Shown: positions 18,629-23,134 of the stretch, one piece after another | How positions within the stretch are numbered: position 1 is the first letter of the stretch | Layout: the number at the start of each line of letters is the position of its first letter | DNA from: a virus | IMG/VR virus record: IMGVR_UViG_3300034101_000185 | Span: 1-29,251 of that record | Reading direction: 5' to 3' (one strand) | Length of the DNA: 29,251 nt | Made by a program: the position numbers and the translations under genes | The notes under the pieces: model-generated | Databases searched by the model: none | The model's input: the letters and a program-made list of their open reading frames with translations, nothing else | Told to the model about the DNA's origin: nothing

Positions 18629-18656
18629 CCCCAGTCCTAAAAAGCTGGGGTTTTTT
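18629..18656 (+). terminator. Rho-independent terminator, end of late operon
   Basis: CCCCAGT (18629-18635) pairs with GCTGGGG (18644-18650), a 7-bp stem with one T-G, around CCTAAAAA and followed by six T's (18651-18656). Confidence 0.85.
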
Positions 18657-19505: not shown

Positions 19506-19943
19506 ATGCGAGAAGTACACAAAACATACATGGCAGAACTTGAGATAGAGGTTTTGCGAGAAAAAAACAAAAGACTAAAGCAAGAGATAAATCAATTAAA
19601 GGATTTATTAGACAAACATTTAAACATAAAAACAATACGAATGGACAAAGAACAACAGAAAGAATATGCGGTACAAATGGCTGAAAAGATTTGCAATTAC
19701 TACCAAATTAATTATGGACAATTAATGTCTAAATATAGAGGCGAAGAAGTTACTTTGGCAAGGCAAATGACTATGTACTTTACTAAGGAAAAAACCGAGT
19801 TAAATGGCGAGGAGATAGCAAAATTGTTTAATAGAGATAGGACGACAGTATTGCACTCAATATCAAAGATTAAAGGGCAACTATCAAACAAGTTTGACGA
19901 CACTATAAAAAAGGATGTTTTCAACTTAAATGTGCTACTTTAA
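19506..19943 (+). CDS. DnaA domain IV-like DNA-binding protein with coiled coil
   Basis: A 145-residue protein. Residues 9-40 form a leucine-zipper-like coiled coil (MAELEIEVLREKNKRLKQEI). Residues 55-125 match the C-terminal DNA-binding domain of DnaA: KICNYYQINYGQLMSKYRGE, then VTLARQMTMYFTKEKTELNG, EEIAKLF and RDRTTVLHSISKI. The last corresponds to the DnaA signature (FGGRDHTTVLHA-x-x-KI), with His changed to Arg. The AAA+ ATPase domain of DnaA is missing. The coil suggests a dimer. It could mark the phage origin, act as a repressor or titrate host DnaA boxes. It lies in the early operon ahead of the annealing protein. Confidence 0.82.
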   Translation: MREVHKTYMAELEIEVLREKNKRLKQEINQLKDLLDKHLNIKTIRMDKEQQKEYAVQMAEKICNYYQINYGQLMSKYRGEEVTLARQMTMYFTKEKTELNGEEIAKLFNRDRTTVLHSISKIKGQLSNKFDDTIKKDVFNLNVLL

Positions 19944-21450: not shown

Positions 21451-21645
21451 ATGAGCCAAAACCAACAAATTGCAAACTACCTAAATAAAGGTAGAAAGTT
21501 AACCCCAATTGATGCTTTAAACAAGTTCGGATGCTTTAGATTAGCAGCACGAATAGCAGACCTAAGAAACGATGGTATGAATATTAAAACAACCATTGTT
21601 AAACTAAAAAATAAGAAGCAAATAGCACAATATTCGGTTAATTAG
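21451..21645 (+). CDS. HTH_55-like helix-turn-helix protein
   Basis: A 64-residue protein. It matches the short phage HTH_55-type domain: IANYLNKGRKLTPIDALNKF, then GCFRLAARIADLRNDGMNI and a closing strand. The core 'LTPxDALxxFGCFRLAARIxDLRxxG' is characteristic. It may act on DNA near replication genes. It is preceded by a 52-base gap (21399-21450) containing no clear promoter and is followed three bases later by a TAnnTTTG promoter element, so it ends this transcription unit or reads into the next. Confidence 0.85.
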   Translation: MSQNQQIANYLNKGRKLTPIDALNKFGCFRLAARIADLRNDGMNIKTTIVKLKNKKQIAQYSVN

Positions 21646-21647
21646 TG

Positions 21648-21655
21648 TATTTTTG
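21648..21655 (+). promoter_or_regulatory. Promoter -7 element of the kissing-loop leader
   Basis: TATTTTTG matches TAnnTTTG. With the 4-nt spacing seen elsewhere in this genome, transcription would start at about 21660, the first bases of hairpin 1. No -33 TTG is found at 17-23 nt upstream. Confidence 0.6.
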
Positions 21656-21658
21656 TAT

Positions 21659-21735
21659 TAGGTGTTGCAGACCTATTAAGAACTTATTGCCCTTGAGATG
21701 AACTCCTATCTGCAACATAGGAGGGATTTGATAGG
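21659..21735 (+). ncRNA. Structured 5' leader with two hairpins and complementary 7-nt loops (predicted kissing loop)
   Basis: Hairpin 1 is TAGGT-(GTTGCAG)-ACCTA, 21659-21675. Hairpin 2 is CTCCTAT-(CTGCAAC)-ATAGGAG, 21703-21723. The loops (21664-21670 and 21710-21716) are both 7 nt and perfect reverse complements. The arms differ but each is self-complementary, as expected if RNA structure is kept. The same loop bases plus their closing pairs can form a 9-bp duplex instead (21663-21671 with 21709-21717). A third option pairs CCTATC (21705-21710) with GATAGG (21730-21735), close to the ATG at 21748. This could be a cis-regulatory switch or a protein-binding site. It does not look like a riboswitch class that I can name. 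Confidence 0.6.
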
Positions 21736-21747
21736 GCTATTTTATTT

Positions 21748-22482
21748 ATGAAAAGTAATAGTTATTATTTTAGCCACGATTACAATTCGGCTAACGACAC
21801 CAAGATTCTATTTTTAAGGCATCAACTTGGTATGGAAGGTTACGGCATTTATTGGTTTTTGATTGAACAATTAGCAAATGCTGGAGGTAAATTGCCATTG
21901 GAATTGATCCCAGTACTTGCTATGCAAATGCAAACTACCGATGTAAAGGTCAATGGAGTAGTACACAACTTTGATTTATTCTCAATTGCATCTGGTGAGT
22001 TCTACTCGGAAAGGTTGCAAAATCACCTTGCTTTAAGACAACATTTAAGCGATAAAGGTAAATTAGGTGCTGCAAATAGATGGAAAAATGGGGAGGCTAT
22101 TGGGGGTGCCATTGGGGAGGGTAATGCAAAGGAAAGGAAAGAAAAGGAAACTAAAGTAAAAGAAAGTAAATTAAAGTTTAGTAAGCAAACGCTATTTAGT
22201 GAAACTGAATTTTTAGATATAAATAAATTTAAGGCAGCTTTTATTGGCACTCAATATGAAGAAGCTAATTTTACATATTATCACGAAGTAATTAAAAATT
22301 GGTCCGACTCAAACGGCGAAAAAAAGTTAAATTGGATTGCCACCGCAAAAAATTGGATGGCAAGAGATTTAAAAGAAGGCAAATTTGTTCACATAAACTA
22401 TAAACCAAATGCAACAGGAATTAGCAACAATAGTAAACTCTCTTACGCAGAGCGAGAAGCTATTGCACTTAGAAATTTATAA
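21748..22482 (+). CDS. Replication initiator / DnaD-like protein with Lin1244-type (DUF4373) N-terminus
   Basis: A 244-residue protein. Residues 1-95 are the Lin1244/Lin1753-like (DUF4373) winged-helix domain: YYFSHDYNSANDTKILFLRH, then GMEGYGIYWFLIEQLANAGG. A Lys/Glu/Gly-rich linker (about 105-145, AKERKEKETKVKESKLKFSK) joins it to a second helical part (EFLDINKFKAAFIGTQYEEA, then WIATAKNWMARDL), as in DnaD-like replication organisers. It likely binds the phage origin and loads the host helicase. It stands behind the structured leader, pointing to post-transcriptional control. Its last 74 bases overlap the next gene. Confidence 0.82.
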   Translation: MKSNSYYFSHDYNSANDTKILFLRHQLGMEGYGIYWFLIEQLANAGGKLPLELIPVLAMQMQTTDVKVNGVVHNFDLFSIASGEFYSERLQNHLALRQHLSDKGKLGAANRWKNGEAIGGAIGEGNAKERKEKETKVKESKLKFSKQTLFSETEFLDINKFKAAFIGTQYEEANFTYYHEVIKNWSDSNGEKKLNWIATAKNWMARDLKEGKFVHINYKPNATGISNNSKLSYAEREAIALRNL

Positions 22483-23134
22483 CAAACTGTATCCAGACGA
22501 ATTAAAAGTTTATTCTGCTTTAGAAACTATGAGCGTAGGTCGATGCTCACCTATTGAGGTAAAAGAACATTTAAAGACTTGTATTGCCTTAAGCGGATGC
22601 CAAACCCCTACATTAGATCACTTTCAGTTTTTATGCGAATTTGTTATAAAAAACTATTGCAATTATAAACTAAAAGAATTAGGAGTAGCTTTTGAACTTT
22701 ACGCAACGGGCAAACTTTCGGTTGACAAGGCAATAACATTTAACCCCAAGTTCTTTGGAGATGTGATGGCAGCTTATAAGCCGATAGCCGTACAAGTAAG
22801 AAACAAGACTTATACCGAGCCGCCGCCACTAGAGATACCTAAAATTGACGATAATGAAGTAATTGAAGCGTTGTACCAAAATTGGGAGAAGTCGCCTAAA
22901 AGAGGATGGGAGTTGCTTAATACAATGGCTTTTGACATACTATGGAAGCGAAAGGAATTAAACAAGGATAATCTAAGTCCAGAAAAAGCCGAGCAAATAA
23001 AAAATAAGATAATAGCACACTATAAGGTGATGGCTAAAACACCTAAAGATTTGGATAAATTAAATAATGAAATATTTATCAAAAATGAGTGCAAGAGATA
23101 TACTTTATTCCTATTTTTACAAAATAAATTATAG
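22409..23134 (+). CDS. Probable replication partner protein, unknown
   Basis: A 241-residue, mostly helical protein with no Walker motif. It overlaps the Lin1244-type gene by 74 bases, so a later start is possible; the next ATG is residue 42 (MSVGRCSPIEVKEHL), but the region before it is coding-like. Notable parts are YCNYKLKELGVAFELYATGK, then LSVDKAITFNPKFFGDVMAA and YQNWEKSPKRGWELLNTMAF. This 'ELGVAFELYATGKL...F.PKF.gdVM.AY' pattern is found next to DUF4373 genes in Bacteroidota phages. It may be the helicase-loader partner; this is inferred from place only. Confidence 0.7.
   Translation: MQQELATIVNSLTQSEKLLHLEIYNKLYPDELKVYSALETMSVGRCSPIEVKEHLKTCIALSGCQTPTLDHFQFLCEFVIKNYCNYKLKELGVAFELYATGKLSVDKAITFNPKFFGDVMAAYKPIAVQVRNKTYTEPPPLEIPKIDDNEVIEALYQNWEKSPKRGWELLNTMAFDILWKRKELNKDNLSPEKAEQIKNKIIAHYKVMAKTPKDLDKLNNEIFIKNECKRYTLFLFLQNKL

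Follow-up and report, generated by a model that had tools for sequence, protein, structure and literature searches.

A phage leader RNA with covarying kissing loops upstream of replication genes, a candidate attenuator in viruses of Bacteroidota-type bacteria

Contacts between the loops of two RNA hairpins occur in several regulatory RNAs, among them the purine and guanidine-II riboswitches, and in the RNA I/RNA II pair of ColE1 the 7-nt loops are fully paired. The pT181 attenuator acts on a gene which we take to be that of the replication initiator. This attenuator combines kissing pairing with an intrinsic terminator in a replication-gene leader, where changes in the loop and upper stem set specificity (PMC3753616). 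In ColE1 the loop–loop pairing lies beside a replication function and the loops have diversified (PMC9458437). Two further systems place a pair of hairpins on one RNA. The putL and putR elements of phage HK022 are RNAs of about 70 nt with two stem-loops on early phage transcripts, putL being located just downstream of its own promoter (PMC9378689), and in the ANTAR dual hairpin the second hairpin overlaps a terminator region (PMC3369931).

The leader described here was found in a viral record of 29,251 bases (IMG/VR IMGVR_UViG_3300034101_000185), analysed as a whole and called the window below, which encodes RecT, winged-helix, Lin1244_N, NinG, ParB-like, terminase, and portal proteins. It is located on the + strand between the winged-helix gene, which ends at 21645, and the Lin1244_N gene, whose ATG is at 21748. 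This first gene downstream of the leader (21748–22482, +) codes for a replication protein of 244 aa (PF14297, Pfam E 1.8e-8), the distant phage homologues of which carry the annotation 'replication initiation protein'. The second gene of the operon (22409–23134, +) has no Pfam match, is well conserved, and is common to phages with differing first genes. At 19506–19943, in the phage replication region, the window also encodes a small protein with the C-terminal DNA-binding domain of DnaA (PF08299) only. In three related loci (L050, L051, and L049) the C-terminal half of the replication protein is near-identical to that of the window protein, and the N-terminal half is swapped for a different Lin1244_N version, a pattern that we read as modular exchange directly downstream of the leader.

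Hairpin 1 (21659–21675) has the arms TAGGT and ACCTA and the loop GTTGCAG (21664–21670); hairpin 2 (21703–21723) has the arms CTCCTAT and ATAGGAG and the loop CTGCAAC (21710–21716). The 7-nt loops are exact reverse complements of each other, as an earlier sequence-only reading of the window had observed. The linker TTAAGAACTTATT (21676–21688), in which AACTTATT is largely conserved, leads from hairpin 1 to the 5' strand of an outer helix (GCCC, 21689–21692), which pairs with GGGC at 21734–21737. This outer helix is the base of a long hairpin that continues with a 3x3 internal loop, a short inner helix, and a 4x4 internal loop, and has hairpin 2 at its tip. The inner helix (AGAT, 21696–21699, with ATTT, 21726–21729) is taken from the minimum-energy fold and is a prediction in the window clade; an equivalent 2-bp helix covaries in the main clade (alignment columns 42–43/71–72). 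Between the outer helix and the start codon lies a U-tract, TATTTTATTT (21738–21747), which appears as T5–T7 in most relatives. In the window clade the complementarity of the loops reaches 9 nt (TGTTGCAGA/TCTGCAACA), a chance extension; most relatives have loop-closing pairs that do not complement each other and a contact of exactly 7. The fold of the window leader is unremarkable (z = -1.1), single-sequence folding being uninformative here, and the proof of the structure is comparative.

Upstream of hairpin 1 we observe a Bacteroidota-type -7 promoter box, TAnnTTTG (TATTTTTG, 21648–21655, +), from which the sequence-only reading had predicted a start at about 21660. Of the 93 unique leaders, 74 have the box 2–5 nt 5' of hairpin 1, and nine more have it at 9 nt. 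In F. psychrophilum the TAnnTTTG box covers -12 to -5 (PMC9723704), a geometry that places +1 on the first bases of hairpin 1; by analogy with flavobacterial promoters, the exact start would be 21660.

A Lin1244_N protein query returned 80 IMG/VR loci, 77 of them with enough upstream DNA. Directly upstream of the homologous gene, 75 of the 77 carry two hairpins with 7/7 complementary loops, in nine loop pairs. Furthermore, we made a covariance model without the loop–loop pairs and applied it to loci fetched with three proteins and DNA patterns. This unbiased model yielded 95 unique leaders (class A), in 93 of which the loops are Watson–Crick complementary at 7/7 positions, with 13 loop pairs and no G–U. 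The only leaders without complementary loops, L346 (937–1023) and L082 (1255–1356), have both lost hairpin 1 by deletion. In L082 the gene is damaged as well, and the bin is labelled Sphingomonadaceae; it is probably mis-binned phage DNA. Permuting loop 2 among the leaders leaves on average 12, and at most 23, of 93 matching, and shuffled loci gave 3 comparable matches in 1.63 Mb.

In a 20-sequence alignment (A3) the loop–loop helix is 100% paired, with both-sided changes in 5/7 pairs. Hairpin 1, the position of which is kept in relatives, covaries in 4/5 arm pairs, hairpin 2 shows both-sided changes in 5/6 pairs, and the outer helix covaries too. The covariation score is 0.64 versus 0.19 in shuffles, with 0 of 500 shuffles reaching 0.64, and covariation is lost when the partners are slid by one base. 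Model-based alignments and direct parsing were used because a MAFFT alignment (A2) misplaced loop 2 of the window clade. Within the loops U2 and A6 are invariant, and positions 3–5 form a variable core. Leaders with the loops GTCAGAT and GTCGGAT are separated by four edits outside the loops, and those with GTACGAG and GTTGCAG are nine edits apart, with three simultaneous compensated changes. As judged from these comparisons, the loops drift freely and the pairing is retained. In the main clade the loop-closing pairs are U–A and A–U and cannot lengthen the contact, so that the contact is no remnant of an inverted repeat.

The mark of an intramolecular kissing contact is that compensatory changes preserve the complementarity of the loops, and the leaders show this. 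The sequence-only reading had predicted that the transcript of the replication gene begins with a kissing-loop RNA and had proposed covariation in homologous leaders as a check; the RNA proved to be conserved, with arms and loops changing in pairs. We regard the hairpins, the outer helix, the loop–loop pairing, and the RNA strand as established by covariation, with very little room for doubt; where the promoter, U-tract, and ATG lie is read directly from the sequence. The strand follows from the G–U pairs, which occupy 88 cells in stem 2 versus 0 of 651 loop cells: on the other strand those of stem 2 would be A–C, and the structure is therefore in the + strand RNA. The same 88 cells speak against an inverted repeat acting at the DNA level, as an origin, a protein site, or a mobile end. 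Such a repeat would account for inverted-repeat loops next to a replication gene, but the arms of the two hairpins differ and each pairs with itself, and the fixed order of promoter, leader, and ATG recurs before other genes. We consider this explanation extremely improbable.

The genes found downstream of the leader include several subfamilies of Lin1244_N, DUF1376-like genes (assigned with E 8e-4 and 5e-5, below the Pfam cut-off), two unassigned families, HNH, DNA methylase, and NUMOD4-HNH. In four loci (L049:2527–2940, L074:2018–3001, L250, and L360:2078–2501) a gene is inserted exactly between the leader and the replication gene, where it occupies the start position of the leader and uses the leader; these inserts are HNH and DNA methylase genes, that of L360 being without identification. 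Some contigs contain a second leader copy, with the loops GTGAGAT/ATCTCAC, upstream of NUMOD4-HNH homing-endonuclease-like genes (L022:3936–4026, L078:4620–4710, L144:7442–7532, and, on the - strand, L233:8527–8617 and L291:1230–1320), as if a mobile NUMOD4-HNH gene travelled with its own leader. Of 40 records searched whole, most have one copy and three have two. Two copies in one genome always differ in their loops, in the few contigs concerned (L144, L078, L022, and L291). Since the leader precedes unrelated genes, it appears to act by position and not on one protein. An autoregulatory leader would always stand before the same protein family, which is not the case among these loci. The differing downstream proteins thus make autoregulation by the downstream protein unlikely and weaken the suggestion of the sequence-only reading that the Lin1244-type protein controls its own level.

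At DUF1376-like loci without a class-A leader we observe other leaders of the same design but unrelated sequence. Class B has the loops ATGCAG/CTGCAT, AGGCAG/CTGCCT, and GGGCAAT/ATTGCCC, a stem TCCCTGATGGG../..CCCATTCAGGGA, and a T-rich tail; class C has GTGTCCG/CGGACAC and GTAGCCG/CGGCTAC, class D GAACGAC/GTCGTTC and GAGCGAC/GTCGCTC, and class E GTAGTGAG/CTCACTAC and GTAGAGTG/CACTCTAC. Each of classes B–E covaries internally and forms contacts of 6–8 bp; in the leader of L466 the contact is 4-bp plus bulged. At least four such sequence-unrelated classes lie about 100 nt upstream of the gene (L458–L477, L538/L539, and L610/L613). Their terminator-like hairpins, most of which have a longer stem than those of class A, precede a T-rich tract and fold with energies of -13 to -25 kcal/mol (z from -3 to -4.6). 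A search for the topology without promoter context gave 529 unique matches, and 199 in 1.41 Mb of shuffled sequence. Requiring the promoter box removes nearly all of this background: 117 of 119 unique matches to promoter, hairpin, kissing terminator-like hairpin, and ATG belong to these families, the leaders of which occupy 202 distinct genomic contexts. One topology in leaders of unrelated sequence suggests a mechanism selected for geometry; shared ancestry and convergence of the classes are both possible.

In all 93 class-A leaders (93/93) the outer helix is followed directly by a T-rich tract and then by the ATG. The helix occurs in covarying versions, including GGCTC/GAGCC, GCCC/GGGC, AGGGA/TCCCT, AGGG/CCCT, GGATC/GATCC, GGGTC/GACCC, and GGTCC/GGACC. 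The sequence-only reading had pointed to a different third helix, CCTATC/GATAGG, as a competitor of hairpin 2. This pairing exists on paper and was rejected as a competing helix: the conserved, covarying helix is GCCC/GGGC, which puts hairpin 2 at the apex of a terminator-like hairpin. A G+C-rich hairpin with a U-tract before a coding region has the sequence features of an intrinsic terminator, a resemblance at the level of sequence. For internal comparison, the window contains a canonical intrinsic-terminator-like site at 18629–18650, CCCCAGTCC..GCTGGGG followed by TTTTTTATAT.

We propose that the leader is a cis-acting 5' RNA, specific to phages, that attenuates their replication operon, a reading in which our confidence and our doubt are about equal. 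Transcription would start on or beside hairpin 1, which would fold first, and loop 1 would pair with loop 2 once hairpin 2 emerges. The outer helix would then close and produce a terminator-like hairpin whose last base pair touches the U-tract before the ATG. With the RNA docked and closed, RNA polymerase would be prone to halt at the U-tract; in read-through RNA the outer helix would lie within the initiation region and keep expression of the first gene low. The hairpin may thus end transcription, block initiation, or both, and the leader probably governs the level of replication protein. Some factor or condition presumably exists that opens the closed form.

Attenuation offers the best explanation for the constant order of promoter, hairpin 1, terminator-like hairpin, U-tract, and ATG in unrelated leaders. 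It is also supported by the resemblance of the leader tail to the terminator at 18629 in the window, and by the departure of the helix and the U-rich start from the A-rich starts of flavobacteria. In agreement with this, the start contexts of the other window genes are A-rich (53% A and 27% T over the final 12 nt), and in F. johnsoniae structure between -20 and +20 and a U at -3 accompany low translation (PMC6847099). Several features weaken the proposal. The class-A helix, with 4–6 bp before the 3x3 internal loop, is weak for an intrinsic terminator, and the U-tract is interrupted (UAUUUU or UCUUUU) in about one-fifth of class A, the window included. The opening step is left without explanation, since the mutually exclusive antiterminator helix of a classical attenuator was not found among the 93 leaders: upstream sequence able to form at least 4 pairs with the outer 5' strand occurs in 17 of 93, which is rarer than in shuffles (40 of 93). 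Finally, a docked 5' structure is also expected of a plain mRNA stabiliser.

Such a stabiliser or insulator would shield the 5' end from nucleases through the docked fold and provide a uniform, unstructured, U-rich start, with neither switching nor termination. Hairpin 1 beginning at the predicted +1, loops that drift freely with their pairing kept, and a leader indifferent to the gene behind it are all compatible with this role. It would need, however, neither a GC-rich helix touching the U-tract nor a fixed position of that helix ahead of the ATG across several unrelated leaders, and the helix sits where structure reduces initiation (PMC6847099). We judge a stabiliser unlikely, though a serious candidate. 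Alternatively, the leader might switch translation only: the outer helix would hide the initiation region until a ligand or protein recognising the docked RNA opens it, and the U-tract would be start context. The 3' strand of the window helix lies at -11 to -14 relative to the start, which is the A-rich contact region of flavobacterial initiation (PMC6847099), and class A, unlike the other classes, has a conserved linker motif, AACTTATT, and conserved bases in the internal loops. U-tracts are, however, atypical as start context in the window genome, and a helix-to-ATG distance that differs by a few bases among leaders fits a terminator more than a tuned initiation site; a purely translational switch therefore seems to us rather unlikely.

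Returning to attenuation, the geometry of the leader bears on whether docking and closure can coexist. Overall, linkers range from 11 to 17 nt, with 85 of the 93 class-A leaders at 13–15 nt, and the stack counted from the foot of hairpin 1 to that of the outer helix spans 30–34 steps. Such narrow ranges of rod and linker would be needless if the two states were mutually exclusive, which suggests that they coexist, and docking would then be favoured as a lock on the closed (OFF) form. On a straight rod, the linker of class A would be pulled almost to its full length, and docking might instead oppose closure.

The loops could also serve to meet a separate complementary RNA, as in ColE1 and pT181, and the sequence-only reading had listed an antisense-RNA target among its options. 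The controlled gene is a replication gene, and the variation of the loops resembles loop-defined compatibility groups (PMC9458437). Each loop, however, finds a perfect complement within its own RNA, and on the opposite strand the promoter consensus TTG-N17-23-TAnnTTTG, the one promoter type searched, occurs in 2 of 202 contexts, below the background of about 4%. These observations weaken the suggestion, and we consider an antisense target very improbable. A more speculative extension of attenuation is that the terminated leader (about 85–90 nt) persists as a stable small RNA whose loops also kiss, in trans, those of nascent sister leaders. Attenuation would then rise with phage copy number, and the loops would define incompatibility groups of co-infecting phages and of the two copies per genome; we hold this to be improbable, if less so than an antisense target. 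Taken together, the interpretation in the sequence-only reading is partly supported: its cis-acting switch stands as the best remaining reading, one that we infer from the leader's design.

The carriers of the leader are uncultured freshwater viruses of Bacteroidota-type bacteria. Among 50,697 records of cultured phages we found no leader-like DNA, and distant 'replication initiation' proteins only. Host genomes were sampled as 396 family, 395 class, and 101 genus members (Bacteroidia, with overlap between samples and reduced-sensitivity filters), and one Chitinophagaceae metagenome bin has the leader, on two prophage-like contigs. As this is the only bin carrying it among several hundred Bacteroidia genomes, Chitinophagaceae are a possible, unproven host family. 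The window has no match at gathering score in Rfam 15, and eight diverse loci searched against Rfam with E up to 5 gave two chance-level matches, both outside the leaders; like the sequence-only reading, we could assign the RNA to no known class. We also found no description of such an arrangement in open-licence papers.

The leader represents a previously undescribed family of RNAs for which the evidence is unusually clean: arms, outer helix, and loop contact are all backed by compensatory change. The family also offers 13 natural 7-bp kissing pairs on similar scaffolds. If attenuation is correct, it would give Bacteroidota phages, which to our knowledge lack Shine–Dalgarno control, a means to meter their replication genes, and would offer a ready-made part for a poorly tooled phylum.

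Among the known systems, purine and guanidine-II riboswitches share the use of loop–loop contacts but have fixed loops, whereas here the loops are free to vary, and the leader has no Rfam match and no three-way junction. The targets of ANTAR combine 3-bp stems with hexanucleotide loops in which A1 and G4 are conserved; our leaders share the two hairpins, the second at a terminator-like region, but their loops are mostly 7 nt (7 in class A), hypervariable, and mutually complementary, and lack the ANTAR loop pattern. The HK022 put RNAs resemble the leader in their two stem-loops and in their place at the 5' end of a phage transcript, at a comparable length (about 75–95 nt for the leader; PMC9378689). 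By this analogy, the folded 5' RNA could make RNA polymerase read through later terminators of the operon. The put RNAs, however, suppress termination in gammaproteobacterial hosts and have no terminator-like helix and U-tract at the start codon, no loop–loop contact is reported in the putRNA structure paper, and a put-like role would leave the terminator-like end of the leader without explanation; we consider it highly unlikely. With ColE1 the leader shares diversified, pairing loops beside a replication function, but the ColE1 contact is intermolecular, between sense and antisense RNA, and RNA II is a primer, whereas the contact here is intramolecular and the RNA is an mRNA leader. The pT181 attenuator comes close in joining kissing pairing to a terminator before a replication gene. 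Its partner is a separate antisense RNA and its antiterminator sequence lies in the first hairpin, whereas in our leader both loops are on one RNA and the contact is made on the terminator hairpin's own loop. Being partly pT181-like but without the defining antisense feature, the leader would form an RNA family of its own and, among leader attenuators, a new variant.
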